Assembly (NCBI GenBank): GCA_009784935.1
Contig: WQXI01000013.1
Span: forward strand, 1-54,557
Source: Treponema sp.
Lineage (GTDB): Bacteria; Spirochaetota; Spirochaetia; Treponematales; Breznakiellaceae
Length of the DNA stretch: 54,557 bases
Direction: 5' to 3'
The position numbers were made by a program, and so were the translations under genes. This document shows, one piece after another, positions 9,529 to 37,369 of this stretch. Positions within the stretch are counted from its first letter, which is position 1, and every line of letters starts with the position of its first letter. The notes under the pieces are model-generated. The model was not told where the DNA came from, searched no databases, and saw only the letters and a program-made list of their open reading frames with translations.

Positions 9529-9882
9529 CTAATTATTCAAAGATTTTTCCAGAGAAAAAAACTGGTTTAATCTTTTATCTATGTCGTCTTTTATTGAATT
9601 TCCTAGTTTTGTAAGCCTTTTATATAGAAAAGAAGTTGATTCGTCTGTGTTATCTTCGTTTATTGGAACAAAAAGCTGAAAAATATCGACGTTTAGAACT
9701 TTTGCAAGCTTTTCCAGTGTTTTATCGCTGACCCATGTACGGCAACCTTCGATATCGCTTATGGTTTGGGTCGAAAGTTCGGTTATTTCTGCTAATTTTT
9801 CTTGCGAAAAACCTAAATCTTTCCTTAAAACCTTGATATTTTGCGCTAAAAGCTTTTTAGCCTGTTCGATTTTCTCAGTCAA
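9529..9882 (-). CDS. XRE family transcriptional regulator
   Basis: A 117-residue DNA-binding protein. The N-terminal helix-turn-helix covers about residues 14-68 (LGFSQEKLAEITELSTQTISDIE). The C-terminal 45 residues are helical and polar and may mediate dimerisation. The start is a TTG with GGGGAT seven bases upstream, and no better ATG exists in frame. It is divergent from the cyclase operon. The 134-bp gap between them contains two palindromes (CCACT..AGTGG and ACTAT..ATAGT), so it may regulate both itself and the cyclase. The ligand is unknown. Confidence 0.85.
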   Translation of the reverse strand: MTEKIEQAKKLLAQNIKVLRKDLGFSQEKLAEITELSTQTISDIEGCRTWVSDKTLEKLAKVLNVDIFQLFVPINEDNTDESTSFLYKRLTKLGNSIKDDIDKRLNQFFSLEKSLNN

Positions 9883-9924: not shown

Positions 9925-9965
9925 CCACTTGACAATAGTGGAATATTACATAACTATTGGTTATA
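9925..9965. promoter_or_regulatory. Divergent control region between XRE gene and cyclase
   Basis: CCACT-TGACAAT-AGTGG (9925-9941) overlaps a minus-strand TTGTCA (9930-9935) that is followed after 16 bp by TAATAT, a reasonable promoter for the XRE gene, and a plus-strand TTGACA (9929-9934). ACTAT-TGGTT-ATAGT lies at 9953-9967. The paired palindromes suggest repressor binding that controls both directions. Confidence 0.45.
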
Positions 9966-10016
9966 GTAAGAAATTCTGATGTTTTTGCTTTTTTTTTGAG
10001 GAAAAGGGGATTATTA

Positions 10017-11855
10017 ATGACTGTTCGTTTTCCTATTGGCGCAAAGTTAATAATATTGATTTCAGTTATTGTAATCGTGTCTCTTGGGTCTATTACTGCT
10101 CTTGTGTCGTGGCTTGTTCACGGGGATTTACGGGTATCGGCGGAGGAAAACAACTTTGAAACAAACCGGCGTTCGGCGATAGAAGCGGAATTGACCCTTG
10201 CCAATGTGCTTTCCCATTCACGGATTCTGATTAATACTATAACCGCCGATGGAGCGAATAACAATACCGCCCGGGAAGCTATAAATTTCTTTTTTACCGA
10301 AAACCCGCAGATTATGTCTGTTTTCTTTATCGCTCCGGGAAGCTTGGAGCAAATATTGATAAACAGGCAGTTCTTTGCCTCGCAGGAAATTGAAACGGAA
10401 CTTGCAGAAACATATTTTAGAAGCCAAAGAAACGCTATCGAACGGGCGGTGCGGGGAGATACCCTACTGTTGAATGCCGCCCCCCACTTTGCAAAACCGG
10501 TACTTGCTTTGTTTTTTCCATGGCGTAATGGAGCGACAGGTGGAGTTTTATTTTCTTCCGAAAGTCTGAACCAGAATTTTGGTGTTGGAACCAACCAGTC
10601 TTATATGGTAAATAATGACGGCGATATACTTTCCAATGCCGATTTTTCTCTTGTGCAATCTGCTGCCAATGTTTTGCAAGAGGATTTTTTCCTTTCGATT
10701 TTGGAAAGTGAACAAACCAGCAAACAACAATTGGTTGAATCGGATGTTCGTATGTTTATGGCTTTTACCAAACTGAAAATAGCGGATACGATAATTATTA
10801 CCAGTATAGAATACGATAAGGTGTTTGAGGGGATAAACGCCACCACGCGGCGCAATTTGATCCTAACCTTTGCAGTATTGTGCATTTCTATTGCTTTTAT
10901 CTGGCTGTTCTCAAAAACAATTTCTATTCCGCTTAAGGCGCTTGCCGTTGTTGCGCATAATATCGAAGGCGGTGATTTTAAAATGGAACTTAAATCAAAA
11001 AGCCGTGATGAGATTGGCGTTTTAACAAATAGTTTTTTAAAAATGTGTTCGGCTTTGAATGTTTTTGGCAGATTTACTAATAAAGAAATTGCGGTAAAAG
11101 CGATGAGGGGCGAAATAAAACCCGGAGGTCTTCCCAAGCATGCTACGATTTTCTTTTCTGATATTCGTGAGTTTACCGCAAAGTCAGAAAATTTTACAAA
11201 GGTTTTTGGTGAGGGTGCTTCTGATCGTATAGTTCACTGGTTAAACCAATATTTTACACAAATGGTAGATTGTGTAGAAAAAACAAACGGTGTTGTTGAC
11301 AAGTTTATAGGTGACGCTGTAATGGCTCATTGGGGTACTGCTTATTCTGCAGGAAGCCCCGAGAAAGACGCATTTAACTGTGTAAAAGCTGCTTTAATGA
11401 TGCGTAATGCATTGTATGCAATGAATAAAAATCGTAAAGAAAACGATCCAGCAGATCCGCTTATTAAAATAGGATGCGGTATTAATACGGGAATTGTTAC
11501 GGCGGGGCAGTTAGGAAGCGATATGCGAATGGAATATACCGTAATCGGCGATCCCGTAAATCTAGCTTCCCGCATAGAAGCTCTGACTAAACCACTTGGC
11601 GCTGATATTTTAATTTCCGAAGACACATGGGATCTAGTCGGAGATAAATTTATAACAGAAGAAATGCCTTCTGTAACGGTAAAAGGAAAAGAAAACCCCG
11701 TACGTATTTTTGCGGTTATTAATATTGCGGGAAACAACAAAGGTCCGCAGACAATTGCTGACGTACGCAGGCTTCTCGGCGTAGAAGCACCAGAAATTTC
11801 AAAGGTAGATGTAAATGCAAGCGAGCAAAAGTTTAAAATCGGTTCAACTCAATAA
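10017..11855 (+). CDS. Membrane-bound class III adenylate/guanylate cyclase
   Basis: Makes a cyclic nucleotide, most likely cAMP. The 612-residue protein has a membrane helix at about 10-32, an extracytoplasmic sensor region (about 33-275), a second helix (about 278-298), HAMP (about 300-350) and a catalytic domain (about 380-570). Metal-binding Asp residues lie in FFSDIREFT and KFIGDAVMAHWG, and the transition-state Asn and Arg in DPVNLASRIE. The ATG at 10017 is chosen because AAGGGGA sits six bases upstream. It overlaps the FecR gene by 41 bases. A close paralogue with the same neighbours lies at 37332-39185. GTP use cannot be excluded from sequence. Confidence 0.92.
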   Translation: MTVRFPIGAKLIILISVIVIVSLGSITALVSWLVHGDLRVSAEENNFETNRRSAIEAELTLANVLSHSRILINTITADGANNNTAREAINFFFTENPQIMSVFFIAPGSLEQILINRQFFASQEIETELAETYFRSQRNAIERAVRGDTLLLNAAPHFAKPVLALFFPWRNGATGGVLFSSESLNQNFGVGTNQSYMVNNDGDILSNADFSLVQSAANVLQEDFFLSILESEQTSKQQLVESDVRMFMAFTKLKIADTIIITSIEYDKVFEGINATTRRNLILTFAVLCISIAFIWLFSKTISIPLKALAVVAHNIEGGDFKMELKSKSRDEIGVLTNSFLKMCSALNVFGRFTNKEIAVKAMRGEIKPGGLPKHATIFFSDIREFTAKSENFTKVFGEGASDRIVHWLNQYFTQMVDCVEKTNGVVDKFIGDAVMAHWGTAYSAGSPEKDAFNCVKAALMMRNALYAMNKNRKENDPADPLIKIGCGINTGIVTAGQLGSDMRMEYTVIGDPVNLASRIEALTKPLGADILISEDTWDLVGDKFITEEMPSVTVKGKENPVRIFAVINIAGNNKGPQTIADVRRLLGVEAPEISKVDVNASEQKFKIGSTQ

Positions 11856-12936
11856 AATCGATTTTATTGTTATTTTTTTACTTCTCGTAATTGCGGCATT
11901 TTGTATAAATTTGTTTAGGATCGATTTACTGCAAACATTAAGTTTAAGAAATGTAGAACCCGTAGGGACTGTTGTTATAAGGCAGAATGTGGTTCAAAGA
12001 AGGCTTGCGAGCAGGGTTTTATGGGACAGATTGGCGACAGAGTCGCCTGTATATATCGGAGATTTGATACGTGTTGCGGAATTGTCATCCGCCACTCTTA
12101 ATATAAAAGATAACGCAATTGATTTATACGAAAACACTCTTATTCGCATAACGCTTGCGCCTGACGGTAAAACTTTGCAGATTATATTAAGCGGAGGAAA
12201 TATTTCAATCGCTTCTATGCCAAACAGCGAAAAACTGCCTCTTATTATTGACGAGCGTTTAATACAACCGGTTTTGCAAGCTGTATTTAGTGTTGTATCC
12301 ACAGAAAACGGCGTAAGACTGCGGGTGGATGAAGGAAGCGTATATGTAACAGAAGATGAGCAGATACGAGAAATACATGCGGGAAATGTTTTTGAGTTTG
12401 AAACGCAAACGGATTTTGTTCCCCGCTTTGAGCAGATGGTTTTTGAGCCGGAACCTGAAACGGTTAGTTTAGCACAGTGGTATTTAACTATTGTACCGTA
12501 TGAGTTTTTACCATCGATTGCAGCAAGTAGTGCTCCCGAGCCCGTTGTACAAGATTCTCTTTTACCCGCACCACGAGGACTGGTGCCTGCAAGAGGACAT
12601 CGTTTTACAATGAATGATTTGTATACACAAAGAAATCTTAGTTTTAGCTGGCAAGCAGTACAAGGCGCTAATGCTTATATATTAACAATTTATCAACAGA
12701 TAGAAGGCAGAAGACGACAAGTTTACCAAACTCAGGCATTAACAAGAACAAACTATGTATTTGAGGATTTGCATTTGTTAGATAGAGGAACTTTTATTTG
12801 GCAGGTAGAACCAATAAACAGAGAGCAGAGCGGATTAATTAATCAACGAGGCAATAGAGCAGATAGTTCATTTATAATGGATATTCTTTTGCCGGGAGCT
12901 ATTCAAGCTGAAGGAACGGGAGTTTTAGATGAGTAA
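11815..12936 (+). CDS. FecR domain protein, membrane anchored
   Basis: A 373-residue protein with an N-terminal membrane helix (about 16-36), a FecR-like region (about 50-190, including GDLIRVAELSSATLNIKDNAIDLYENTLIRI) and a C-terminal fibronectin-III-like segment (about 265-350). FecR domains sit in the periplasm and usually relay signals. Here no sigma factor is adjacent. It begins inside the cyclase gene, 41 bases before the cyclase stop. The paralogous pair at 37 kb has an in-frame ATG at the equivalent place, which supports this start. The protein probably links an envelope component to the cyclase, but that role is inferred from conserved order. Confidence 0.85.
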   Translation: MQASKSLKSVQLNKIDFIVIFLLLVIAAFCINLFRIDLLQTLSLRNVEPVGTVVIRQNVVQRRLASRVLWDRLATESPVYIGDLIRVAELSSATLNIKDNAIDLYENTLIRITLAPDGKTLQIILSGGNISIASMPNSEKLPLIIDERLIQPVLQAVFSVVSTENGVRLRVDEGSVYVTEDEQIREIHAGNVFEFETQTDFVPRFEQMVFEPEPETVSLAQWYLTIVPYEFLPSIAASSAPEPVVQDSLLPAPRGLVPARGHRFTMNDLYTQRNLSFSWQAVQGANAYILTIYQQIEGRRRQVYQTQALTRTNYVFEDLHLLDRGTFIWQVEPINREQSGLINQRGNRADSSFIMDILLPGAIQAEGTGVLDE

Positions 12937-13780
12937 TAAGAGTTTGCTTATTATTTTATTCATTTTTTTACTGACTCCACATCTCTATTCGCAATCAGAT
13001 ACTCTGAACGAGCAGCGTTATGCAAGGCGAATTGTTTGGAGAGGAGGAGAAAATGCACTTCGTTACTTAGTAGAAATTGAAAAGTTAGAAAATAGGAATT
13101 ATCAAAGACATCTGCGTGAATATACTACAATGCTTTATATTGATGTTTCCTTAACGATTGGAGAATATCGTTTTCGAATTATCCCTTATGATATTCTTGG
13201 CCGCCCAAGCGAAGGTACGCAATGGATGAATTTTGAAGTTAGATTAACCGTGAGGCAGCAGCTAAACGAAGTGCTTATAATAGACGCTGCCGATTATAGC
13301 TCGTCAGGCGAACAGAAATCCGAGAGTGAATCTGCTGCCGCAGAAAGAAACCATCGGTTTAATACCGCAGGTATATCCATAGGTTCTTCTTTTATTGATC
13401 CGTTAGCTATAATTATCCTAAATGGAACATATGCGCCGTTACAAATACAAAATATATTTTTTGAGATTGGCTGTGATTTTGGTTTTCTTAGTATTTACGA
13501 TGATGTAGAATTATTATTTTGCGTATATCCTTATATAAATATAGGTTATTTTTTGCCTTTTAATAATAAAGGCGGTATTTTTGCAGGTGTTGGAGCCGGT
13601 TATATGATAGGAGTGTATCACTTTGAAGACGGCAAAGCTGATATAAGTGTTTATGGAATTAACTTTTTTCTTGGAATTAATCTTTTTGATATGATTAATA
13701 TTTCGTATACATTCAGAACAAACTTTGACAATTCTAGCAATAAGTTATCGATTGGATATGTATACAGGTTTATGGAATAA
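12929..13780 (+). CDS. Outer-membrane beta-barrel-like protein of the cyclase operon
   Basis: A 283-residue exported protein: signal peptide to about residue 21 (LLTPHLYSQ), a fibronectin-III-like segment (about 28-110), a polar Ser/Glu linker, then about 130 residues of alternating hydrophobic strands ending in GYVYRFME, as in outer-membrane barrels. It overlaps the FecR gene by eight bases. A much larger relative with two such barrels occupies the same place in the second module (33475-35880). No named family is recognised. Outer-membrane location is inferred. Confidence 0.75.
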   Translation: MSNKSLLIILFIFLLTPHLYSQSDTLNEQRYARRIVWRGGENALRYLVEIEKLENRNYQRHLREYTTMLYIDVSLTIGEYRFRIIPYDILGRPSEGTQWMNFEVRLTVRQQLNEVLIIDAADYSSSGEQKSESESAAAERNHRFNTAGISIGSSFIDPLAIIILNGTYAPLQIQNIFFEIGCDFGFLSIYDDVELLFCVYPYINIGYFLPFNNKGGIFAGVGAGYMIGVYHFEDGKADISVYGINFFLGINLFDMINISYTFRTNFDNSSNKLSIGYVYRFME

Positions 13781-13800: not shown

Positions 13801-14946
13801 ATGTTAAAAAATAAATTAATAGCCAAATACAAGTTACTTTTATTAATAATTATACCTTTGATATTAGCTAGTTGTATGTTATGGGGCGATTTGGAAGAAT
13901 TGCGAAGCCTTGCAAGTGGCGATGGCGGTGACAACGGCAATAATTACACTCCTGGTTTGTCTTTCACCTTAATAAATAATGGAACAGCATATTCGGTATC
14001 CAGAGGTACAGCGACTGATTCCGCAGTTATAATACCTGCAATTTTTAATGGATTGCCAGTAACGATGATAGAAAATAATGGATTTTTAGATAATACAGGT
14101 ATAACGAGTATAGTGATACTTAATGGTGTGACAAGTATTGGTCAATTTGCATTCAGTGGTTGTACAAGTTTAACGAATATAACAATACCTAATAGCGTGA
14201 CGTTTATTGGTTACGGTGCATTCGGTGGTTGTACAAGTTTAACGAGTGTAACTATACCTGATAGCGTGACGCGAATTGCTGATAGTATGTTCGTAGGTTG
14301 TACAAGTTTAACGAGTGTAACTATACCTGACAGTGTTACGAGTATTGGTTATGGTGCGTTCCAGAATTGCACAAGTTTAACAAGTATAATTATACCTGAC
14401 GGTGTGACAAGTATTGGTGTCGGTGCGTTTCGGGAATGTATAAGTTTAACGAGTGTAACTATACCTGGTAGTGTGACAGATATTGGCAGTCTTACGTTCG
14501 CTGACTGCACTAACCTCACGAGTATAACAATACCAAGCAGTGTAACGAGTATCGGTTCTGAAGCATTCTCTTTTTGCACAAGTTTAACAAGTATAAGTAT
14601 ACCTGACAGTGTCACGAGTATTGGTTGGGCTGCATTCTCTTTTTGCACAAGTTTAACAAGTGTAACAATACCCAATAGTGTAACGAGTATTGGTGATTCT
14701 GCATTCTTTGGTTGCACAAGTTTAATCAGTGTTACTATACCCAGTAGCGTGACAAATATTGGTAATGGTGCATTCAATGGTTGTACAAGCTTAACAAGTA
14801 TTACTCTGGTTACTATTACAGAGGCAAATTTTGGTACTGCTCCCTTCCCAGGAAACTTACGTACAGTTTATTTTGCTGGTGGTGGTGGTGCTGGGACTTA
14901 TGTAACGAGTAATCCGGGGAATGCTGCGGTTTGGGTGAAGGAGTAG
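13801..14946 (+). CDS. BspA-like leucine-rich-repeat lipoprotein (TpLRR)
   Basis: A 381-residue surface lipoprotein. A signal peptide with lipobox LASC ends near residue 25. About ten 23-residue LRR_5 repeats follow (about 95-340), each of the form TSxTIPxSVTSIGxxAFxxC. The C-terminal tail FPGNLRTVYFAGGGGAGTY...WVKE also occurs in the two LRR remnants at 16.9 and 17.8 kb. In treponemes and Bacteroides such proteins bind host matrix or other bacteria. AAGGAG lies six bases before the ATG. The gene sits 20 bases after the OMP gene and could be cotranscribed with the cyclase operon. The 69-bp DNA repeats make it prone to repeat-number change. Confidence 0.9.
   Translation: MLKNKLIAKYKLLLLIIIPLILASCMLWGDLEELRSLASGDGGDNGNNYTPGLSFTLINNGTAYSVSRGTATDSAVIIPAIFNGLPVTMIENNGFLDNTGITSIVILNGVTSIGQFAFSGCTSLTNITIPNSVTFIGYGAFGGCTSLTSVTIPDSVTRIADSMFVGCTSLTSVTIPDSVTSIGYGAFQNCTSLTSIIIPDGVTSIGVGAFRECISLTSVTIPGSVTDIGSLTFADCTNLTSITIPSSVTSIGSEAFSFCTSLTSISIPDSVTSIGWAAFSFCTSLTSVTIPNSVTSIGDSAFFGCTSLISVTIPSSVTNIGNGAFNGCTSLTSITLVTITEANFGTAPFPGNLRTVYFAGGGGAGTYVTSNPGNAAVWVKE
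14090..14810 (+). repeat. 69-bp tandem coding repeats of the LRR gene
   Basis: About ten units, each coding one 23-residue leucine-rich repeat, with the recurring core TGTACAAGTTTAACGAGTGT. Neighbouring units differ mostly at third positions. Confidence 0.85.
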
Positions 14947-14962
14947 GGGTTTTGGGGCTGCT
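14931..14962 (+). repeat. LRR 3'-end boundary repeat, copy A
   Basis: This 32-bp stretch covers the last LRR codons (WVKE, stop) and the following GGGGTTTTGGGGCTGCT. It is identical to 18040-18071 behind the LRR remnant at 17.75-18.06 kb. Cargo genes begin 72 bases downstream. Confidence 0.9.
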
Positions 14963-15034
14963 CGGGGGAGAGGCGGGTGGCTCTTTTAGGAGCGGTTTTT
15001 AGATGAGTAGCTATGTTTTTAAAGGAGATTTTTT

Positions 15035-15556
15035 ATGTTTCTGGATATTAAAACTATTTTATCTGTTTTAGAAAGCATTTTTGTAATAATTGGAGTATGT
15101 TTTCTGGCAATACAAATTAGACAGCAAACAAAAATAGCTGAGGCAGACCATGATAGAATAAAGAAGCAGTCCACAATTGAATTCTACAATCTTATTTCTA
15201 CAGAAAGTCAAATTTTTATTGATTATATAGGCAATAAAATTGTGGATTTGGAGATGATAAAATCTGATATAAAATTAGAAAGAAGCGTTACGAAATATCT
15301 TTCTCGTTTAGAGCGACTTGCTGTTGGTATTGCTTCTGATATTTATCATTTTGAAATTCTTTGCCATGTGGTTGGCAGTCACTTTTCTAAAATATATAAC
15401 CAGCTAGGAATATATATAAGGGAAATGAGAGAAGTAAATAAAACTCCAAGGCGCTATTATGAATTTGAACTTTTAGTAGAGAGAATTGAAAAGTATAGAG
15501 GAGAAAATCCAACAAAAAACGTACGCGGTAATGTTACGGTTAGTTCATTTGATTAA
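15035..15556 (+). CDS. DUF4760-like single-pass membrane protein
   Basis: A 173-residue protein with one N-terminal membrane helix (about 8-28) followed by a cytoplasmic helical domain. The pattern RQQTKIAEADHDRIKKQSTI EFYN, then LSRLERLAVGIASDIY and YYEFELLVERIEKY fits DUF4760 as I recall it; a profile search would confirm. Function unknown. Proteins of this shape are common in accessory islands. AAGGAG lies seven bases before the ATG. It is the first cargo gene after the intact LRR gene and is 37 bases upstream of the next ORF. Confidence 0.65.
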   Translation: MFLDIKTILSVLESIFVIIGVCFLAIQIRQQTKIAEADHDRIKKQSTIEFYNLISTESQIFIDYIGNKIVDLEMIKSDIKLERSVTKYLSRLERLAVGIASDIYHFEILCHVVGSHFSKIYNQLGIYIREMREVNKTPRRYYEFELLVERIEKYRGENPTKNVRGNVTVSSFD

Positions 15557-15593
15557 TATTTAAATGTTTTATTAATAATATAAGGAGATATAG

Positions 15594-16736
15594 ATGATAG
15601 TACTTACAGAAAATAATTCCTTTCAAAATGTAGATAAAGTCATACGTAGACAATGTGAGGATATTGATCAGATAAATGATTTTTTGCAATATTGTATGCA
15701 ATTAATATTCTATGAAAATACATCCATTATAGGAACTGTTAATCGTAGTGTTCTTGATGATTCAATGAATTTAGCAAATAATTTAAATAACGTCTATTCA
15801 ATTAATAATATTAATTACGAATTAATTAATGATGACTCTGGAAAAGCAATTAGTATTATTAAAAGTGTTTCAGATGACATATATTTAAGACTTAATAATT
15901 TTAAAGATGAGTATAAAAATAAGAAAGAATCTGATGTAAGGATATATTTGCCTGCGTTTTCAACAAAAATTGAAGAATTAATTACTGAAACTACAGAAGC
16001 AATTAAAGAAAGAAATGATAAAATATTTGATAAATATTTACCTTATTCATCTTTTTCTTATGATTCATGTTTTTTTAAAATTATGAAAGCAAATCCATTA
16101 ATTATTGACGAACTATTTAAAATAGTAGATGAAGTTGGATGGAATAAAGCTATGACGTTAGGTTTATTAGCAGAAATACGCCTTATGACTAATAGAGCAT
16201 TAGCATATGAAAATAGCCAAGCATATTTACCATCAACTAAAAGAAGTAGGTTAATAAATATTAGTAAGCTGATATTTGAAAAAGTTGAATCAGAGTTATC
16301 AGAAAAATCTAAACAATTTAAAGTAGAAATCCCATCAATTGTTGAACATTTGGTTGAAAAAGGAAAAGGTAATCCAAATGATATTATTAAAATAACTTGC
16401 GATTTAAGAGAAAAATTTTTACCTTTTCGTGAATATATTGATAATAACGAAACAATAAATAATAGGGAGCTGGATAATATCATAAGAGATATTATTGATA
16501 AATATTTTAATGGATATAAAAAAGGTAGGTTAAAAATATTTCTGGACAATATATTAACTTTTATAAAAATAGATCCTGTACCCATCCCATTGCCAGTACC
16601 TAACATAATAAAAATGGATAAAGAGTTTAAAATTAACAAATGCGTTCAGGTCTTTGCAAAAGTAGTTGATGATATGGAGAATAAAGGGAGTATTGGGTAT
16701 AAGGAATTATTAATAAAAAATTGCATGAAAGATTAG
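15594..16736 (+). CDS. Uncharacterised AT-rich, helical cytoplasmic protein
   Basis: I do not recognise this 380-residue protein. It has no signal peptide or membrane helix, is rich in Asn, Ile, Lys and Asp, and is predicted mainly helical, with a proline-rich patch near 335-345 (DPVPIPLPVPN). AAGGAG precedes the ATG. Base composition is clearly more AT-rich than the flanking core genes, in line with recent acquisition. Its closeness to the DUF4760 gene suggests a two-gene unit. No catalytic motif is visible, so no function is assigned. Confidence 0.6.
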   Translation: MIVLTENNSFQNVDKVIRRQCEDIDQINDFLQYCMQLIFYENTSIIGTVNRSVLDDSMNLANNLNNVYSINNINYELINDDSGKAISIIKSVSDDIYLRLNNFKDEYKNKKESDVRIYLPAFSTKIEELITETTEAIKERNDKIFDKYLPYSSFSYDSCFFKIMKANPLIIDELFKIVDEVGWNKAMTLGLLAEIRLMTNRALAYENSQAYLPSTKRSRLINISKLIFEKVESELSEKSKQFKVEIPSIVEHLVEKGKGNPNDIIKITCDLREKFLPFREYIDNNETINNRELDNIIRDIIDKYFNGYKKGRLKIFLDNILTFIKIDPVPIPLPVPNIIKMDKEFKINKCVQVFAKVVDDMENKGSIGYKELLIKNCMKD

Positions 16737-17077
16737 TTATTAATATGTATTACTTTATCTTTATGCTTGAAAAAGGTTGTAAGTGTAGCAGTTTGCTATA
16801 TTAGGTTTGTAAAAAGAGGATATCAGAAAATATTAAATTTGTCTAAAAGGAATAGAGTTTGTCATTTGAACGATAAAACGTTTAGCGGGAGAATTTTGTA
16901 AGAAATGTATTTTTTTTATTACTAGTTGAGGTGCAGGAACTTATACAAGAGCGGTGGGATCTAATAAATTGTTGAAGGAATAGAAGTGGGGTGATCTGAA
17001 GATCGGGCGGCGGTGTGCGGTCTTTTGGGGTGGTTTTTTTGGTTGGGTAGATTTTTTGAAAGGGGGGGGAGATAATT
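16737..17077. other. Intergenic region, 341 bp, between cargo genes
   Basis: AT-rich to about 16920 with nothing recognisable, then the LRR tail remnant (16930-16983), then a G-rich stretch (16985-17075) that resembles the sequence after the third LRR end and carries the start region of the next gene. No complete gene is seen. Confidence 0.6.
16930..16983 (+). pseudogene. Remnant of an LRR gene 3' end, copy B
   Basis: The 18 codons read GAGTYTRAVGSNKLLKE and stop. They match the C-terminal tail GAGTYTRATGLSAWVKE of the remnant ending at 18055 and the tail of the intact LRR gene. Nothing upstream still codes LRR repeats, so only the end of a former gene survives, or only this end was copied here. 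Confidence 0.7.
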
Positions 17078-17084
17078 GTGAGTG
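17045..17084 (+). repeat. Shared cargo leader, copy B
   Basis: The stretch from GGGTAGAT through GAGATAATTGTGAGTGA, containing the ribosome-binding site and GTG start of the 17078 gene, is nearly identical to 18121-18160 in front of the unrelated gene at 18153. Confidence 0.8.
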
Positions 17085-17707
17085 AACAGTTAGAAAATAG
17101 CAAGTTATCGAAAGATAAATTAGCAAGTTTATTTTTTAATGAATATCAATATAGACACTCGTTATTGTGGTCTACTATCAAATTCTATATTATAATAATT
17201 GCATCTCTTTATGCGTATCCAATGTTTTCAATTAATGCTGATGATATACAAAAATTTAACTTCAGATTAATTATATTTCCCATTTCCGGTTTTTTAATAA
17301 CATTTATTGGATGGTGGCACATTAGAAGTGAAGCAGATAGGTTTGATGTTGTTTATAAAAAATATAATGAAATACGCGGACAAGGAAACAGACCAACATG
17401 GTTGTATACAGGAAAAAGAAGTTTTATACAACAATTAATCTCAGAGAGTATGAATAAGCTAATTTTATCTTTATATTTCATATTGTCGTTGATTTTTTTC
17501 CTTTTTGGTACACTCATGATTGTTGATTATTGTTTTTTTGAAAATCAAATTCATCCGATTATGTATTTGTCAATTCTACCCATACCTATTCTCTTTATTA
17601 TTAAGTTTTTAGTAACAATTTTATTTAATATGATGGTACATAATAAGAAAACAGTAATAAAAGATTGCGGTAATTGTATAAAAAGCACAGAAAATGAGGG
17701 TGCGTAA
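17078..17707 (+). CDS. Four-helix integral membrane protein, function unknown
   Basis: A 209-residue protein with probable membrane helices at about 27-46, 58-80, 126-149 and 155-181, and a polar loop between helices 2 and 3 (EADRFDVVYKKYNEIRGQG). GTG is the start: the G-rich GGGGGGAG lies eight bases before it and the same leader precedes the gene at 18153. The layout resembles small multi-helix membrane proteins found with bacterial defence or conflict genes (SLATT- or RipA-like shapes), but I cannot assign a family. It follows a degenerate LRR gene end. The composition is strongly AT-rich. Confidence 0.6.
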   Translation: MSEQLENSKLSKDKLASLFFNEYQYRHSLLWSTIKFYIIIIASLYAYPMFSINADDIQKFNFRLIIFPISGFLITFIGWWHIRSEADRFDVVYKKYNEIRGQGNRPTWLYTGKRSFIQQLISESMNKLILSLYFILSLIFFLFGTLMIVDYCFFENQIHPIMYLSILPIPILFIIKFLVTILFNMMVHNKKTVIKDCGNCIKSTENEGA

Positions 17708-17752
17708 GAAATAGCTTTTTGTTATAAATATAAATAATGAATATCGTAATTA

Positions 17753-18055
17753 TTATTTTGGAAAAAAAGATTACATTTAATACAAGCGCCTGCAGGTATC
17801 AGTGGAAATATTACAATACTCAACAGTGTTACGTGTATCGCTGATGGTGCGTTCTCAGGTTGTACCAATTTGACGAGTATTGATGATTGGGCGTTCCAAG
17901 GAGTTTTATCGAGAGTTACCATTGGAACTATTTCGGAAACAAATTTTCATACTGAGGCATTCCTCGGTAATTTACCTGATGTGTATTTTGCTGCTGGAGG
18001 GGGTGCGGGGACTTATACCAGAGCGACAGGGTTGAGTGCTTGGGTGAAGGAGTAG
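17753..18055 (+). pseudogene. Truncated BspA-like LRR gene, copy C
   Basis: The frame is open from about 17753 but has no ATG. It reads about two LRR units (SVTCIADGAFSGCTNLTSIDDWAF in pieces) and then the full C-terminal tail FLGNLPDVYFAAGGGAGTYTRATGLSAWVKE. It lacks the signal peptide and most repeats, so it is a 5'-truncated copy of a gene like 13801-14946. A TTG at 17870 could start a 61-residue product, but this is unlikely. Its end and the following 17 bases are identical to those of the intact gene. Confidence 0.8.
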
Positions 18056-18071
18056 GGGTTTTGGGGCTGCT
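18040..18071 (+). repeat. LRR 3'-end boundary repeat, copy C
   Basis: Identical over 32 bp to 14931-14962. It covers the last codons and stop of the LRR remnant and the following G-rich stretch. Confidence 0.9.
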
Positions 18072-18120
18072 GGAGATCGTGCGGTGGGTGTGCGGTCTTT
18101 GGGTTTTGGTTCTTAAGATT

Positions 18121-18160
18121 GAGTAGATTCTTTTTGAAAGGGAGAGATAATTGTGAGTGA
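18121..18160 (+). repeat. Shared cargo leader, copy C
   Basis: Nearly identical to 17045-17084, including AAAGGGAGAGATAATT and the GTG start codon with the first codons (GTGAGTGA). The proteins encoded after these two leaders are otherwise different. Confidence 0.8.
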
Positions 18161-19190
18161 TGAGCGTGTAAAAGTTTATAGCAAAAAAGTAGTTAATACG
18201 GTAAGAACTGGAGGGTCATTAATTATTTTTATTATTTCGTTATCTTCTTCTATTATTTTTCCTTTTATTACTTATAAGCTGCAGGAATTAAAATATTTTA
18301 ACATAGAGCCTGATAAATTATTTATTATTAATTTTACATGCGCTGCTGCAGTTTTGATAGTATCAATTATATTATTCTTTATTGGTACAATGAAGAAATT
18401 TCATGATTTTATTTTAAGGAATCATTTAACAGAACTTAATAATCTATCAGCTAAACTTAATAGTAATATTTCTGTAAGTAAGGAAATGATAAAAAATATA
18501 GAAAATAGTAAATATTATATGGATAATCCAAAAATTATTAATGACGATGAGATGTTTTTTAAGTATTTGAATAGAGCGCAAAATAATATTGATAGTGGTA
18601 GTATAAGATTAACAAATTTTTCAAAAATGCTCATTAATGATGAAGAGTGTGGCCGGGATGGTATTAATAATATTAATGATTATTTTAATAAAATATTAAA
18701 AACATACAAAGAGAAAACAAATAAAATAGCTGTTTATAATATTGTTTCAATTCATACATTGGAGAAATTAAACGAATGTAAACGCCTGGTTGAAAAAGCC
18801 AATGCAATGAAGCTTGCTAATTTTCACTTAGCATATTTATACATAGAGGAAGACTTTGAAAATAATCTTCCTAACGTAATTGGTGTACAAATTATTGGGG
18901 ATGAAGTTTTACTTATGCATCCGCAATTTGCACGTCTTTCTAATAATGCTGATAATGAAAAAGCTATTCATATAAAAAGTAAAGTAATTGCAGATATGTA
19001 TAAAAATTATTATAAATTATTATGGAATGAGATAAAAGTTAATAAAAAACGTGGTTTTTTGCTTTATGATGGAGAAAAAAGGAATACGTCAATAAATAAA
19101 TATTGGACAGAGATCGAAAATGATGTAAATATATATAATGGAAAACAAAAATCTTGTGAAAAAGAATATCAAAAAGGAAAAAAAATATAA
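18153..19190 (+). CDS. Two-helix membrane protein with a large cytoplasmic domain
   Basis: A 345-residue protein with membrane helices at about 18-38 and 58-80, then a helical linker (about 85-190) and a C-terminal globular region (about 195-320) with alternating strands (VIGVQIIGDEVLLMHPQF). I do not recognise the domain. The layout of two helices plus a cytoplasmic sensor or effector domain is common among membrane-linked defence proteins, but no catalytic motif is visible. The GTG start is set by the ribosome-binding site AAAGGGAGAG and by the leader it shares with the gene at 17078. AT-rich, third cargo region after an LRR end. Confidence 0.6.
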   Translation: MSDERVKVYSKKVVNTVRTGGSLIIFIISLSSSIIFPFITYKLQELKYFNIEPDKLFIINFTCAAAVLIVSIILFFIGTMKKFHDFILRNHLTELNNLSAKLNSNISVSKEMIKNIENSKYYMDNPKIINDDEMFFKYLNRAQNNIDSGSIRLTNFSKMLINDEECGRDGINNINDYFNKILKTYKEKTNKIAVYNIVSIHTLEKLNECKRLVEKANAMKLANFHLAYLYIEEDFENNLPNVIGVQIIGDEVLLMHPQFARLSNNADNEKAIHIKSKVIADMYKNYYKLLWNEIKVNKKRGFLLYDGEKRNTSINKYWTEIENDVNIYNGKQKSCEKEYQKGKKI

Positions 19191-19377
19191 AAGGTCTTTT
19201 TAAAAAAATATTTCCATATTTTTTTGATAATAATAAAAAGGAGATAACGCAATAATGTATATCTAACAAGTAACAGCAAAAATACCTGCTACCATTTTTC
19301 CATAGTGGTTCTAAGCGCAACTACAAGCTGCCACACATACTCCGTGAAACTCTGTGGTTAAATTTCTTCCTCTGTAA
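19191..19377. repeat. Intergenic region with an isolated CTCCGTG repeat
   Basis: After the membrane-protein gene the sequence is AT-rich without a gene. The stretch 19332-19372 (CTCCGTGAAACTCTGTGGTT and a following AAATTTCTTCCTCTG) is one half of the dispersed repeat, in the same orientation as the right halves at 20990-21025 and 52056-52110. The repeat ends directly before the ORF6N remnant. Confidence 0.55.
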
Positions 19378-19617
19378 ATGATTTATGATTTACGTGGAAA
19401 GAAAGTTATGTTAGATAGCGACCTTGCGGCTTTGTATGAAGTAGAACTAAAGGTTATGAATCAAGCTGTAAAGCGTAATATAAAACGGTTTCCATCAGAT
19501 TTTATGTTCCAATTAACTGAAGAAGAATGGAGAAATCAAAGGTCACAATTTGTGACCTTTAGCAAGGATACCAGATTAATCGGGGCAGACTTCCTTTTTC
19601 CCCCTAGGAATATATAG
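19378..19617 (+). pseudogene. Truncated ORF6N-domain protein
   Basis: Residues 1-55 match the ORF6N (phage-type KilA-N-related DNA-binding) domain: [22 protein letters not shown] followed by [22 protein letters not shown]. Family members usually continue into the segment that reads roughly YLPYVFTEQGVAML and run to 160-300 residues. Here the similarity ends after SQFVTF and 20 unrelated residues lead to a stop, giving only 79. This looks like a gene cut off by deletion or recombination. A short product may still be made, but no ribosome-binding site is visible. Confidence 0.7.
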
Positions 19618-19667
19618 CAATTTTTCTCTAATAATTATGAAAAAATCTCCATTTTTTGCTGTTTTGC

Positions 19668-19696
19668 TTGACATTTTGAAGTACTGCTACTATACT
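19668..19696 (+). promoter_or_regulatory. Strong sigma70-like promoter of the toxin-antitoxin pair
   Basis: TTGACA (19668-19673), a 17-bp spacer, and TATACT (19691-19696). The transcript would have a leader of about 100 bases with a small hairpin (TTTGTG...CACAAAA, 19748-19769) before the GTG at 19803. Confidence 0.75.
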
Positions 19697-19802
19697 ATAG
19701 ACAAGCATTTTAATATAACAGTTAGCGTCAAATTACTGACATTAACCTTTTGTGTTTTTTGGCACAAAATAAGCCTTTTTTGGTGTCTCCTTGGAGAAAA
19801 CC

Positions 19803-20468
19803 GTGAAACAATTGGAAAAAGAATCACACAATAAAGAATTTCGTCTTAATAGATATTGTTATTTAAATATCGAAAAAATAATACAGATTTTTTACTATAT
19901 ACAAAAATACTCAAAAAGCAGTTCCAAACTTGAACTAATTAAATATTTGTTTTTTGCAGACAGGATAAATATTAGAGAGTATTTCTCACTTATTTCTCTT
20001 GATACATATATTGCGTTAGAACATGGTCCTGTAGCTTCTATTGCGTTAGATATTATTAATAAGAGTACAGAATACCTTAATAATTACGAAGAAAATGAAT
20101 TAAAATATTTAAACTATATTAAGATTAATGGTAAATCAAACAGGAAAATTAATCAGATAGGTTTTGATCTTTTAAGTAAAAATGAAATGAAATCTCTGGA
20201 TAAATCAATAGAATTATTTTCTGGTAAAAAGCTTGTGGATATTTCGCATGATTATCCTGAATGGAAGCGTTTTAAGCTTCTTTTTGAAAAAAAATATATT
20301 TCATCACGGCCTATTCACATGGAAGATTTTTTTAAAAATCCTGATATAAAAGATTCTCCTGCTATAAATAAATATTTTAATAATGAGGATCCTTTATACA
20401 AAGATGAGAATTATTTAAAAGAAGCAAAGCAGTTTTACATGGAGAGCTTGGGACAATATGCAGTATGA
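19803..20468 (+). CDS. Panacea-domain (DUF4065-type) antitoxin
   Basis: A 221-residue protein with a Panacea/SocA-like domain at about residues 15-150: INIEKIIQIFYYIQK-like opening, KLELIKYLFFADRINIREY, then YIALEHGPVAS and the late DISHDYPEWKR. Panacea domains neutralise a wide range of toxins and are usually the antitoxin of a two-gene operon. GTG at 19803 is the start, since GGAG lies six bases before it. The TTG twelve bases earlier overlaps that ribosome-binding site. The end overlaps the next gene by 11 bases, so translation is probably coupled. Its AT content matches the surrounding island. Confidence 0.8.
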   Translation: MKQLEKESHNKEFRLNRYCYLNIEKIIQIFYYIQKYSKSSSKLELIKYLFFADRINIREYFSLISLDTYIALEHGPVASIALDIINKSTEYLNNYEENELKYLNYIKINGKSNRKINQIGFDLLSKNEMKSLDKSIELFSGKKLVDISHDYPEWKRFKLLFEKKYISSRPIHMEDFFKNPDIKDSPAINKYFNNEDPLYKDENYLKEAKQFYMESLGQYAV

Positions 20469-20871
20469 AATTTCCTGTGGTTTTGCCTTTTATGGATTCA
20501 TACCAGATGGTTCGAATGAGCAGCATTTAGGTGTTGTATTAGGGGTAAATGACCTAATACTAAAATATTGTTATTGCACATCAAAAAACAAATATAAGTA
20601 TTTACATTTTAATGAAATTGATTTTATAAGAGTGCCAGTGTCACTAATGGAAAAATATTTCTATAATCCGCAGGAAACTTATATTTTTTTGTCTCAGAGG
20701 CATATTATTGATATGTATTTAGTTACATTCAACGGCCGTATTTCCAGTTCCGAATACGATGTAAAAGGACAAATAGATAATGATATAATTATCGCAATTT
20801 TTAATAAAATCAAGAATTCAGAAAACTTATCAGAACGATTTAAAAATGATTTTTTCTCTTTTGTTGAATGA
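20458..20871 (+). CDS. Probable toxin of a Panacea toxin-antitoxin pair
   Basis: A 137-residue soluble protein starting 11 bases before the antitoxin stop. The first half reads FAFYGFIPDGSNEQHLGVVLG then ILKYCYCTS, which resembles the strand pattern of PemK/MazF-fold toxins (a conserved HxxVVL followed by a CTS/FTS segment), but the match is weak and no sure active site can be named. The toxin role is inferred from the paired layout with a Panacea antitoxin. If true, the target could be RNA. Panacea partners include many other folds, so this could be one not yet grouped. Confidence 0.6.
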   Translation: MQYEISCGFAFYGFIPDGSNEQHLGVVLGVNDLILKYCYCTSKNKYKYLHFNEIDFIRVPVSLMEKYFYNPQETYIFLSQRHIIDMYLVTFNGRISSSEYDVKGQIDNDIIIAIFNKIKNSENLSERFKNDFFSFVE

Positions 20872-33474: not shown

Positions 33475-35880
33475 CTACTCAATCTTTGTAAGAACGAACT
33501 CTGTAAAATTAAGCGTTACAGGTCCTATGTTTCTGTCGCGGCTTGCAGTAGTAAAAATCATTGCGTTTGATACCGGACGGGAGGTTTCTGCCCTTGTGTA
33601 TATTCTAATTATTATTTCTGCAGTTACTTCTTCGCCTGCTTTAGAAGCCGGAAGCACAGCGCCGCCGTTGCTGTTATTTGGTATTGATATTCCAACCTGT
33701 CTCCACGACAGAGCTGTCCAAGGGTTATAGCCTGCAAAACCGACGCCTATTTCATTTTCTAAATCCCGGCTTGCGGTATATGTAACTTTGAGTTTATAAA
33801 CATCGCCTCTGCTGAGTCTGTGTCCGTTTAATAATCTTGGGTTTTGTATATCGCTTTGATAGTTTGGAGCATTCACAAAATTATCAATTAGTTCAAGTTG
33901 AAATTCTCCAAGCGAGACTTCTGGCAAATTTAATATAACAGGCTGAGGTGAAGTTTGTTCAGTTGGTCCAATGTGTTCTGTGTGCTCCGGTTCCTCAGCG
34001 GGTTTTGGCGGAAACAGCGAAGTAGGAAGACCATGACCTCGAAGCCTCAAACCTGTTTCGTTATTTCTGTTAAACTGCCAGCCGATTGTAAGGCTTGGGC
34101 GCATAGAAACTCTTGGTTCAAAGTAATGCAAGAATACAAAATCAATTCCCGCTTCTGCGTACATATCTTTCCATATAAAGTACTGAACCGAAGCGCCGGC
34201 ATTTGTAGCAAAAACAGGCTCATACACTCCCGTGTTATAATTATAGGGATTAGAAATACCTAGTCCTGCATGAAAATTTAATTGCCATTTTTCTGATAAT
34301 ACACGCTGGTATATCGCTCCTACCATAAATTGACTTAAAAGATCCAAGACTTCATAACCCGGTGAGGATGTTTCAACACGATTAATACGTTCAAGAATGC
34401 CAAACTCAAACCTGATTCCAAGTTTGTTCTGTCCCCAGCGATGCGGGAGATACGCATAACGCAAACTTACCCCGCCAGCGTTAAAGTTACGTAATGCTTG
34501 GATGTAAACACCGCCGTCGGTTTTGATCAATTCAAACCCCGATAATGGAATCATAGGATGCCAGCTTAAAGAAACAAGATGTTCACCTTTTGGAGGCTGT
34601 GTTACAGGTACAGAAAAATCTTCGCCGCGGCGTGCAGCTTCTATTACTTCTGCCTGTTCTGCCCATCTTCCAAACTGCCAGCCAATTCCAATATGCGGCC
34701 TAAACATTAAATGACTAAACTCAAAAGTGTATTGTATATCAAGTCCCGCTTCTAAATATAAATTTTTCCAGACAAAAAATTGCGCAGAATAACCAAAGTT
34801 TAGAGCAATGTCTTGAATTTCGTTAAAATTAGGTTCTCCTGTGTAATGGTAACTTTCAAACATTATTCCAAAGCCGAGCCTAAAATTATGCTGCCAGCGT
34901 TCTGTAAAGGGGACTTGATAGAGTACATTAAAAATTATACTGTCTGTTGCGTCAAAGAAAAAAGTTAAATCATTATGTCTAGTATAATTTCTATAATTAT
35001 TATTATCCAATAAATTAAAATGCAGCTCTAAGCCAAAATTACCTATTTTAGTCTTAAGCGGTATCCAGCCGAGGCGAAAGTAAAAACCAAGCGGATTTAA
35101 ATGTTCAAGCTGTCTTTCTAAAACTTGAGCTTCTACAAACAATGCGTTTTCTATGTCAAAGGCAGCAATCATCGGTGAGTAACCAAACGAGAAGGTAAAA
35201 TCTGTATTGTTTCTATATCCTACCCGAACCTGTCCAAAAGTAGACCATAATCCTCCGGGATTGCGGATAAATATCTGATATGTGCCGCGTCTAAGAGAGC
35301 CGCTTTCAAAACTTAAGCTGGCATGATTTCCTTCTACTTCTACGCGTTTTGGAAAAATAACATCATTGCGGCCTTCTAATGATACTCCCGACCAGTCATA
35401 ATTTGCCCTGTGTCTGACAAGCGCAAACTCAGAAACATCAAAAAAATCTCTTCCGTAAATTATTAGTACGTTGTTGGGATCCGGCAGTTCAAAAAACATG
35501 CCGTAATGCGGCTGATAACTTATAGGTACAGGTTCGAGCCCTTCGATTATTCTAAACTCCTGCCATTCGGAAATTCCTTCTAATAAATTCATTCTGTTAA
35601 TTGCAGTAATTCTGTAGCGGTAATACCCCGCTTTTAATGAGACTTCGATCGAATTAGTATTGGTTATTATTGTTTCCAGCGGAATTATCTGCGAACCATC
35701 TATTTGTTCTAAGTCTACTTCGTACCTTAGTGTATTGGGAACTTCCGGAAATGTAATAGTCTGAAAAAGCACAAACCCGTCACTTGTTCTTTCTACGCGG
35801 TTGGCTTCTTCATTTGCAAATACAGGGATAACTATTGTTAAAACAAAAAACAAAAATAAAAATTTCTTAACGGTTGCCAT
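33475..35880 (-). CDS. Large outer-membrane protein of the second cyclase module
   Basis: An 801-residue exported protein. After a signal peptide (to about residue 23, VIPVFA) come a fibronectin-III-like segment (about 35-110), a second beta-domain (about 130-220), and two copies of a beta-barrel-like region (about 220-415 and 430-620). Compare FVWKNLYLEAGLDIQY, PHIGIGWQFGR with FIWKDMYAEAGIDFVF, PSLTIGWQFNR. A C-terminal beta-sandwich-like part (about 660-800) follows. ATG at 35880 is chosen because GGGAGA sits six bases upstream; the start overlaps the FecR stop by 14 bases. No named family is recognised. It corresponds to the 283-residue protein at 12929. Confidence 0.72.
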   Translation of the reverse strand: MATVKKFLFLFFVLTIVIPVFANEEANRVERTSDGFVLFQTITFPEVPNTLRYEVDLEQIDGSQIIPLETIITNTNSIEVSLKAGYYRYRITAINRMNLLEGISEWQEFRIIEGLEPVPISYQPHYGMFFELPDPNNVLIIYGRDFFDVSEFALVRHRANYDWSGVSLEGRNDVIFPKRVEVEGNHASLSFESGSLRRGTYQIFIRNPGGLWSTFGQVRVGYRNNTDFTFSFGYSPMIAAFDIENALFVEAQVLERQLEHLNPLGFYFRLGWIPLKTKIGNFGLELHFNLLDNNNYRNYTRHNDLTFFFDATDSIIFNVLYQVPFTERWQHNFRLGFGIMFESYHYTGEPNFNEIQDIALNFGYSAQFFVWKNLYLEAGLDIQYTFEFSHLMFRPHIGIGWQFGRWAEQAEVIEAARRGEDFSVPVTQPPKGEHLVSLSWHPMIPLSGFELIKTDGGVYIQALRNFNAGGVSLRYAYLPHRWGQNKLGIRFEFGILERINRVETSSPGYEVLDLLSQFMVGAIYQRVLSEKWQLNFHAGLGISNPYNYNTGVYEPVFATNAGASVQYFIWKDMYAEAGIDFVFLHYFEPRVSMRPSLTIGWQFNRNNETGLRLRGHGLPTSLFPPKPAEEPEHTEHIGPTEQTSPQPVILNLPEVSLGEFQLELIDNFVNAPNYQSDIQNPRLLNGHRLSRGDVYKLKVTYTASRDLENEIGVGFAGYNPWTALSWRQVGISIPNNSNGGAVLPASKAGEEVTAEIIIRIYTRAETSRPVSNAMIFTTASRDRNIGPVTLNFTEFVLTKIE

Positions 35881-37369
35881 ATAGTTCTCCCGGATCATTT
35901 GTCGGCAATGCCCTTGTCGGGATATCTCCCGGAACTACGGTAAACCGTAAAGCGGCAGAAGGAAGTTCCTGCCAGTTATTGTTTCTGCCTTTTTCATAAA
36001 CCTGCCACACATATTCGCCGTTTGGCAGAGAAGATGGATTTTGCATTTCGTACATTTTACCCGTAACCGGCGCAGGCTGAATAACGGCTTGTCCGTCAGC
36101 GCGGTAAAGCGCAAAGAGATATTCTCTGCCGTCTCCGTCCCATGAAAAATAAATAGACTGCGTGGTTCTTAATTGTTCAGAAGTTACTATATAACTGTTT
36201 GTCGGGAAAGGATCAGCAATCGTACTTGATTCTGAAACCTGCAATAAACGCGTCAGCGGATCTTGCGGCGATAGAGGCGGCGCCGGCGGCAATGCAGGCG
36301 GAGGTGTTACGGCAACAGGCGGTGTTACAGGCTGTGGTTGAGGCGCTGGGGTAACTGCCGGAGGCGGTGTTGGTGTTGGTCTAGGCTGCGGAGTAGCTCC
36401 TATTGGAGGCGGTGCAACCGGCTGAGGCTGAGGCGCAGGAATTGGTTCCGGAGCCGGCTCAGGTCTTGACGGCTGCCTCGGAGCCGCAGTTTCGATTACT
36501 TGAATTGAACCGGAAGGATATACAGGGTTTGCTATACTGCCGTCAGGCGTTACTACATAGGCGCGCCACCAGTAAGAACCAAAATCCAAATTTACTGTAG
36601 CCGATGATCCTGTTGATTCGGCAGACGAAACTATCTGCGAAAAATTACCATCCAAAGCGGCTTCTACTACAATTTTTGACTGCGGATCAATATTTGATTT
36701 ATTCCATGAAAAATTAACAGGAACAATTTCTCCCGGTGTGCCGGAAACGCGCGCAGAAGGACCAAAAGATGTTATAGCTATCATTGGTTTTTCTTCGCGC
36801 TGTCCTTCGTTATTTACTGCCAAGACTGAGCCGGATGAAACAGTTTCTCCGTTTAAACGGGCTCTGCCTCTTACAACAGACATATTTAAACCGTCATTGT
36901 TCCTGTCAAGACTTGCCTGTCCGCCAACAATTACTTCTGATGTGCCGGTTTGAATAACTACATCCCGAGATCCGGAAGTTACTTCCAGCCGTCCTCCGCT
37001 TAAACCAATTCTTAAGCCTTGTTCATCACTATAAAAAATTTGTATAAGGGTGTTTTCGTCAAGTGCAATAGTCGTTTCTTCGTCTCTAAAAATTATTACT
37101 GCTTCTGAGAACTCTATTGTACGGATTGTATCGCCGTTATATAAAGGCGTATTCTGTCTAAGCCTGTCCCATACAACGCGATCTATAAATTTTCTCTGCG
37201 CGGTTCTCTTTTTAAAATATATCCTGCCGATTTCTTCTTCGTTTAATTTGGACAGAGTGCGGTTATACTCACCCCAAAATGCCGCTCCCGAGAAAATGGA
37301 TCCGGCTACACAGAGAAGGATGACAACAATGTCAGCCTTTTTCAATTTTATACTTTTTTTCTTCTGCAT
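35867..37369 (-). CDS. FecR domain protein with proline-rich linker
   Basis: A 500-residue membrane-anchored protein: a hydrophobic helix at about 14-34, FecR-like beta-region (about 55-190), a fibronectin-type segment (about 205-265), a Pro/Gln/Ala-rich linker (about 270-370) and a second beta-domain (about 385-490). The linker could span the periplasm or peptidoglycan. ATG at 37369 is chosen because the paralogue at 11815 starts at the equivalent codon, after the cyclase sequence KVD(T/V)NA. It overlaps the cyclase gene by 38 bases. Both copies of the module keep this overlap. Confidence 0.85.
   Translation of the reverse strand: MQKKKSIKLKKADIVVILLCVAGSIFSGAAFWGEYNRTLSKLNEEEIGRIYFKKRTAQRKFIDRVVWDRLRQNTPLYNGDTIRTIEFSEAVIIFRDEETTIALDENTLIQIFYSDEQGLRIGLSGGRLEVTSGSRDVVIQTGTSEVIVGGQASLDRNNDGLNMSVVRGRARLNGETVSSGSVLAVNNEGQREEKPMIAITSFGPSARVSGTPGEIVPVNFSWNKSNIDPQSKIVVEAALDGNFSQIVSSAESTGSSATVNLDFGSYWWRAYVVTPDGSIANPVYPSGSIQVIETAAPRQPSRPEPAPEPIPAPQPQPVAPPPIGATPQPRPTPTPPPAVTPAPQPQPVTPPVAVTPPPALPPAPPLSPQDPLTRLLQVSESSTIADPFPTNSYIVTSEQLRTTQSIYFSWDGDGREYLFALYRADGQAVIQPAPVTGKMYEMQNPSSLPNGEYVWQVYEKGRNNNWQELPSAALRFTVVPGDIPTRALPTNDPGELYGNR

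Follow-up and report, generated by a model that had tools for sequence, protein, structure and literature searches.

Why would the gene of a surface protein be followed by two fragments of its own 3' end, each with an intact gene of a different kind close behind it? The question is raised by a 54,557-nucleotide stretch of DNA (hereafter the window; contig C13, WQXI01000013.1) from a draft genome of Treponema sp. (GCA_009784935.1; 2.37 Mb, 94.6% complete, 68 contigs). In an array within this window, the 3' end of an intact BspA-type leucine-rich repeat (LRR) gene recurs as two remnants in the 3.1 kb behind it, and intact AT-rich genes lie behind each of the three LRR ends, forming three cargo blocks. 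We compared the array with sets of 195 genomes of the family and 39 genomes of the genus; genomes are denoted by G, fetched loci by L, and the three copies of the LRR tail and its leader, from 5' to 3', by A, B, and C. One explanation, to which we assign somewhat less than an even chance, is that units of an LRR end and a membrane partner gene were stacked by homologous recombination, with decay of the LRR portions and retention of the partners. Ordinary decay of a tandem LRR array is equally likely on present evidence.

Three LRR gene ends and the genes behind them

The intact LRR gene (positions 13801 to 14946; all features of the array lie on the plus strand) belongs to the Pfam family LRR_5 (PF13306, E 4.8e-102, 337.2 bits against a cut-off of 27.7). 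It is built of 69-nt repeats, encodes a lipoprotein-like N-terminus (judged by eye), and ends in a GAGTY...WVKE tail (tail A). With 62.6 bits it is also over the cut-off (30) of TIGR02167, the PARCEL repeat model of NCBIfam; its tail is constant, and domain scans listed no CdiA or Rhs domain for it. A profile of the tail matched the window at 14797-14943 (E 1.4e-26), 16930-16980 (E 1.5e-4), and 17912-18052 (E 1.2e-28). The second match marks a 54-bp remnant of the 3' end of an LRR gene (tail B, 16930-16983), and the third, together with one LRR repeat at 17810-17881, a remnant of about 246 nt (tail C, 17810-18055) that contains a single repeat and a complete tail but not the start of an LRR gene. 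An earlier interpretation made from the letters alone (the sequence-only reading) had recognized these three 3' ends, and the LRR_5 and tail profiles bear it out; its length of 300 bp for the remnant at tail C exceeds what the profiles indicate.

Homology continues past the stop codons. All three tails and about 90 nt of 3' flank can be aligned over roughly 200 columns, with pairwise identities of only 58% to 67% in the tails and 59% to 73% in the flanks, which marks the duplications as old. These flanks, or leaders, span 14947-15034 (A, which is G-rich and has a terminator-like hairpin at 14980-14993), 16984-17077 (B), and 18056-18152 (C, with a terminator-like hairpin at 18070-18102), and the cargo start codon follows the LRR stop codon by 88 to 97 nt at all three ends. 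Leaders B and C, which the sequence-only reading took to be the same over 40 bp, are similar rather than the same (95% identity over the 21 nt leading into the start codon, 80% over about 90 nt), and leader A aligns with both. Terminator-like sites number three in the region, versus 1.6 expected in shuffled sequence. Folding of leader C is somewhat more stable than expected (z of -2.4, with 5 of 200 shuffles as good), and the values for A (-1.3) and B (-0.1) are unremarkable; no Rfam family matched the window at gathering scores.

Ends A and C share a 32-bp block that is identical across the stop codon (14931-14962 and 18040-18071). This exact match, already pointed out in the sequence-only reading, stands out from an A/C alignment with 162 matching columns of 256, for which none of 20,000 column permutations yielded a run of 32 or more. 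Around the stop codon, A and C agree against B at 13 consecutive informative sites, and sites at which B and C agree flank this stretch on both sides. The sequence-only reading had held that its proposal would fail if the downstream genes kept one fixed order in all relatives and the tails lacked a recombination signal; the mosaic seen here is recombination-like. In our reading, gene conversion between the two ends probably produced the identical block; alternatively, it may be a short element under conservation, since genome G021 matches 21 of 22 bp of the stretch.

The genes behind the three ends differ sharply in composition from their surroundings. Block 1 holds a gene for a DUF4760 protein of 173 amino acids (aa) with one transmembrane (TM) helix (15035-15556, 30.1% GC) and a 380-aa gene assigned to no family (15594-16736, 24.9% GC). 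Block 2 consists of a gene for a 209-aa four-helix membrane protein (17078-17707, 26.8% GC), and block 3 of a 345-aa gene, again without an assigned family, whose product has two N-terminal TM helices (18153-19190, 24.6% GC). The window averages 38.9% GC, and its 1-kb segments outside the array have a mean of 40.3% (standard deviation 2.8, minimum 32.6%); the remnants and leaders, at 45% to 50%, are close to tail A (46.0%). The cargo frames are intact and preceded by ribosome-binding-like sites, and base shuffles of the 209-, 345-, and 380-aa genes produced a stop-free frame in 0 of 2000 cases each. The DUF4760 assignment is secure (PF15956, E 7.3e-13, 49.3 bits against a curated cut-off of 25), and a simple hydropathy script recovered four hydrophobic helices in the 209-aa protein and two in the 345-aa protein; on these points and on the AT-richness of the cargo, the sequence-only reading was accurate.

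Searches for relatives of the cargo yielded little. For the DUF4760 protein there was a further match, to the functionally uncharacterized phage family phrog_2284 (E 4.1e-10), and the 380-aa gene has two relatives, one of them full-length in G164 (36% identity). Convergent to that relative lies a gene resembling DUF4062 by eye (L253:3277-4215). A match of the 209-aa protein to 8xMP (PF24838) was rejected at 21.5 bits, under the cut-off of 30. Predicted structures of the 209- and 345-aa proteins reached mean predicted local distance difference test (pLDDT) scores of 62.5 and 43.2; the low-confidence 209-aa model retrieved nothing with Foldseek at E values up to 0.001, and sequence searches of the PDB gave no credible match. 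Plasmid searches by tblastn with three cargo proteins and scans of viral contigs with two found no relatives. The suggestion that the cargo might comprise defence genes gained no backing from PADLOC, which matched none of the four cargo proteins at E values up to 0.1.

Partner genes behind LRR genes of related genomes

DUF4760 is rare in the family, occurring in 6 of the 195 genomes. In four of these six (the window's genome, G021, G014, and G030) the gene is the next one after a co-directional LRR_5 gene, and all four LRR genes end in a GTY-type tail, as scored by the profile in the window and G021 and as judged by eye in G014 and G030. The genes of G008 and G175 have no such linkage, and two weak DUF4760 matches from outside the family but within the same order (G296 and G282) show no LRR gene in the roughly 3 kb covered. 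The sequence-only reading had called the cargo unrelated. The units do precede genes unrelated to one another, but the DUF4760 gene is a recurrent partner of LRR genes rather than random cargo. The DUF4760 protein of G030 has a weak, partial match to PD-T4-7 in PADLOC (E 0.013). At the same locus the LRR_5 domain forms part of a 965-aa fusion of protein kinase, TM helix, and LRR_5 with a GTY tail (L250:1586-4480); before it lies a gene that looks PP2C-like by eye, and the DUF4760 gene comes after it.

A second family shows the same placement. Its two-TM (2TM), S-2TM-beta-like proteins, with N-terminal hydrophobic helices and a G-x-W-x-G-x-Y motif, occur in 3 of the 195 family genomes (G006, G015, and G060), each time as the immediate downstream neighbour of an LRR gene; no member occurs in the window's genome. 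The family was first met behind tails in G006 and G015, and the member in G060, whose LRR gene carries a GTY tail, was found afterwards. The G060 and G015 proteins weakly match PADLOC effector profiles named 2TM over most of the profile length (E 1.7e-4 and 1.3e-3), and the third member has no PADLOC match at E values up to 0.1; none of the three matched Pfam. By-eye inspection of the open reading frames (ORFs) of L264 to L266, for which no profile search was made, noticed no second-messenger synthase beside the 2TM genes.

Across all seven LRR-partner loci the partner gene has 23% to 32% GC and the LRR gene 37% to 48%. BLASTP comparison of their surroundings (6 to 16 kb each, some cut by contig ends) found only helix-turn-helix (HTH)-like genes in common, at three loci. 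The LRR proteins themselves vary, including lipoprotein-like proteins of 381 and 1060 aa and the 965-aa kinase-TM-LRR fusion. A Pfam scan of five of the seven detected no toxin domain and, besides the kinase of the fusion, no enzyme domain over the cut-off. At four of the loci the LRR gene has a divergent neighbour immediately upstream that appears HTH-like by eye (L249:8370-8711, L264:7675-8088, L265:3764-4093, and L266:2669-2989). Behind the partner, a second AT-rich one-helix membrane gene is found in G060 (L264:2275-2808) and in G021 (L147:7550-8095), the two not being homologous by BLASTP.

Four of the nine partner genomes are a biased sample, having been found via the window or an LRR tail. 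Among the other five, the LRR linkage holds in three, or in three of seven if the two weak DUF4760 matches outside the family are included. Chance alone would give a linkage of about 0.6%, on the assumption that the genome has 2,100 genes and with roughly a dozen LRR_5 loci in it. The pairing is not random, and it hints that LRR gene and partner travel or work together.

LRR ends elsewhere and the surroundings of the array

The sequence-only reading had further proposed that LRR gene ends serve as landing sites for new genes and that LRR tails be collected and the DNA downstream of them aligned. The tail is a widespread protein end, present in at least 51 of the 195 family genomes at E values up to 0.01. 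Sixty regions chosen from these matches, ten further loci, and the window gave 77 tail matches in all, 65 of them terminal tails (the window's three included). The first ORF downstream of these 65 lies on the same strand in 43 cases and on the opposite strand in 21, with none present in one, and most genes behind the tails in relatives look ordinary. Reading by eye of the 110 nt past the 65 tail ends revealed no common motif or leader, and a DNA search with the leader in the 39 genus genomes returned this locus only, besides matches of 22 to 29 nt in three other genomes. A conserved landing motif at LRR ends was thus rejected as a candidate. A wider contig scan with the LRR end recovered mainly LRR genes of other phyla. 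The proposal is borne out in part, by the recurrence of tail-leader units before unrelated AT-rich genes, the recombination-like mosaic, and the recurrent partners. A general landing site is unsupported, as other LRR ends showed no common leader, no excess of AT-rich genes behind them (counts below), and mostly ordinary neighbours.

Several features were observed beside LRR tails in the survey. L236 and L237 of G161 contain tandem LRR gene arrays ending in AGTYRSSDGGxTWxRQ variants of the tail. PDDEXK_2-type (Rpn-like) nuclease genes occur near LRR tails or a porin-like gene at L216:2821-3804, at L139:10489-11385, and as the second downstream gene of L235; Pfam confirms the assignment for L216, and the other two rest on resemblance.

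In the window, the LRR gene is attached behind a run of cyclase-like, FecR-like, and porin-like genes on the plus strand (9957-13780; labels assigned by eye, the FecR match being under the cut-off). The same gene order, likewise with an LRR gene behind it, is conserved in G020, and beyond the porin-like gene the gene content differs among G011, G020, and G061. An HTH-like gene (by eye) lies upstream of the whole operon at 9529-9882. A second copy of the cyclase-like and FecR-like pair is located on the minus strand at 35867-39185; cyclases of relatives are about 50% to 52% identical to this copy, versus 69% to 74% to the one before the LRR gene. On the far side of the array, accessory genes follow on the plus strand (19378-20871): a 79-aa ORF6N fragment matching profiles of the PADLOC candidate PDC-S05 (19378-19617), and a SocA/Panacea-like gene with an overlapping 137-aa gene (19791-20871, 26% to 28.5% GC) that resemble a toxin-antitoxin pair. 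A longer ORF elsewhere in the source genome has an N-terminus similar to that of the ORF6N fragment (L269:2111-2659). This block is flanked by two motif pairs of the form RYYYAAC...GTTRRRY (19261-19363 and 20727-20869; 6/7 and 7/7 complementary), both falling there. We discarded a reading of them as attC sites, their number equalling that in shuffled sequence (2 in the window versus 2.33 per shuffle).

Candidate origins of the array and comparable systems

The closest parallel that we found in outline is provided by loci for contact-dependent growth inhibition (CDI), at which orphan cdiA-CT/cdiI modules lack translation start signals, share a common junction, carry a small gene of their own (PMC3150448), and keep varying amounts of parent sequence (PMC3150448). 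As in CDI/Rhs orphan modules, the array has an intact surface gene followed by 3' fragments with a common junction sequence, and an unrelated small gene of its own behind each fragment. The statement in the sequence-only reading that no described system has this design was therefore too strong, as the portion of the CDI account considered here already shows an array of the same outline (PMC3150448); among the papers listed by literature searches, no title or abstract opening described an LRR-end cassette design. The differences are substantial. In CDI/Rhs the common part lies inside the gene, upstream of a variable toxin tip, whereas here it is the extreme 3' end together with the untranslated sequence that flanks it. 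Variation is confined to the downstream gene, the protein keeping a constant end, and the parent is an LRR_5 gene rather than a toxin gene.

If units were stacked in this way, each would once have joined three parts: an LRR gene of the BspA type, a 3' flank with the stop codon, a G-rich stretch, and a ribosome-binding site, and an AT-rich membrane partner. New units would have entered by homologous recombination between the repetitive LRR 3' end and related incoming DNA, so that a newly arrived 3' end with its partner came to lie behind the intact gene and their predecessors were shifted downstream. Decay would then have reduced the displaced pieces of LRR gene to 54 and about 246 bp, with the partner genes remaining intact, and later gene conversion between A and C would have created the 32-bp block. 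That the LRR pieces decayed and the partners did not would mean that selection kept the partner, not the old LRR copy, and the resemblance of the layout to CDI orphan modules leads us to prefer serial displacement with selection for the partner. The order of these events, homologous recombination as their mechanism, and a functional relation between LRR protein and partner are what we infer from the layout; the partner could guard against its LRR protein or act with it at the membrane.

A number of observations weigh against this sequence of events. The 209- and 345-aa genes have relatives in none of the 194 other family genomes and none of the 38 other genus genomes, and no LRR gene is seen at the two relatives of the 380-aa gene, one of which is truncated where its contig ends and the other an N-terminal fragment with none near. 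Tails and leaders differ by 27% to 42%, so the events are old, and an ancient duplication would fit too. The linkage counts are small and the species not independent. Of the seven LRR-partner loci, the window alone has a further LRR 3' end besides that of the LRR gene itself, although diverged remnants could have been missed because the tail profile fails to detect the tail types of G014 and G030. AT-rich neighbours are not enriched behind tails (10 of 57 downstream versus 11 of 40 upstream, of which three and two, respectively, are the window's own; the count omits L236 to L238, tails with more than four residues after them, and, on the downstream side, the tail behind which there is no ORF), and only the subset that also has a TM helix is more frequent downstream (7 of 57, three of them the window's own, versus 2 of 40, one of them the window's own). 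Of 12 further LRR regions inspected in the source genome, one is without a profile-detected LRR gene and one has an LRR gene that runs off the contig end; none of the other 10 LRR genes has a co-directional AT-rich membrane gene next behind it, and two have an AT-rich one-helix gene on the opposite strand (23.1% and 27.4% GC). Finally, short orphan LRR ends of 46 to 113 codons exist as plain debris at seven loci (L184, L204, L207, L216, L219, L256, and L257).

This debris, the tandem LRR gene arrays of G161, and the lack of general AT enrichment behind tails are equally what one would expect if the array were a decayed tandem LRR array in a plastic region, in which two copies were deleted, accessory genes were inserted independently, and gene conversion acted on the ends, with no principle of loading. 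The accessory genes at 19.4 to 20.9 kb, of 26% to 36% GC and without LRR ends, fit such a region as well. Array decay alone leaves unexplained the constant cargo start 88 to 97 nt past the LRR stop at all three ends and the fact that DUF4760 and 2TM genes turn up repeatedly behind LRR genes, and on balance we consider it plausible at a little under an even chance. That recurrence, with LRR-DUF4760 pairs in four species and LRR-2TM pairs in three, in differing contexts, would also follow from a fixed pair of LRR protein and membrane partner, either a sensor with its effector or a secreted effector with its immunity protein, whose two genes move together, several pairs having been inserted side by side and their LRR genes later lost. 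The weak matches of two of the three 2TM proteins to PADLOC effector profiles (E 1.7e-4 and 1.3e-3) agree with this, but the varied architectures of the LRR partners speak against a single fixed pair, two of the six DUF4760 genes stand apart from LRR genes, and the five LRR proteins scanned with Pfam have no toxin domain, making a fixed pair improbable.

Site-specific loading at the LRR end by an integron, a diversity-generating retroelement (DGR), or another dedicated recombinase was also considered. Integron cassettes stand in tandem, each with different cargo but with the same kind of junction repeated between them, and their attC sites contain the core pair RYYYAAC...GTTRRRY. The array resembles them in its tandem units, unrelated cargo, and repeated junctions with homology on both sides, and two attC-like pairs lie just past it. 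In contrast to integron cassettes, the junction is a gene end, the core pair is found at none of the three LRR-cargo leaders, and the pairs past the array are at chance level. DGR variation is confined to adenines of a template, unlike the differences between A and C, where 34 of 79 mismatches involve no A. These results, and the failure to find more than short partial matches to the leader in the rest of the genus set, make a dedicated recombinase very improbable.

Two further systems bear on the stacking of LRR-partner units. PARCEL repeats have been treated as horizontally spread and mobilised within genomes (PMC2996958), and the LRR gene resembles them in exceeding the TIGR02167 cut-off; downstream partners and displaced 3' ends are not mentioned in the portion of the PARCEL account considered here (PMC2996958). 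S-2TM-beta proteins, among them the Cap15 and OptE effectors, have been described, in the part of the account considered, as a two-pass membrane element fused to a nucleotide-binding beta-barrel (PMC12657218). The LRR-linked proteins of G060 and G015 may resemble these effectors, given their weak PADLOC profile match; they differ in their position behind an LRR gene, and no adjacent nucleotide synthase was noticed by eye.

A wider possibility, which we regard as rather unlikely, is that BspA-type LRR genes across the genus have interchangeable AT-rich partners (DUF4760, S-2TM-beta-like, four-helix, and others) that are exchanged at the 3' end and its flank, so that displaced ends would mark former partners. 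Gut bacteria and spirochaetes have many BspA-type LRR proteins, whose partners have, to our knowledge, received little study. If true, the recurrent link of LRR genes to DUF4760 and to 2TM effector-like proteins would provide a testable function for DUF4760. Stacking of the kind seen in CDI and Rhs loci would then involve an LRR surface protein that keeps a constant C-terminus of its own, and the displaced-module design would extend from toxins to LRR surface proteins.

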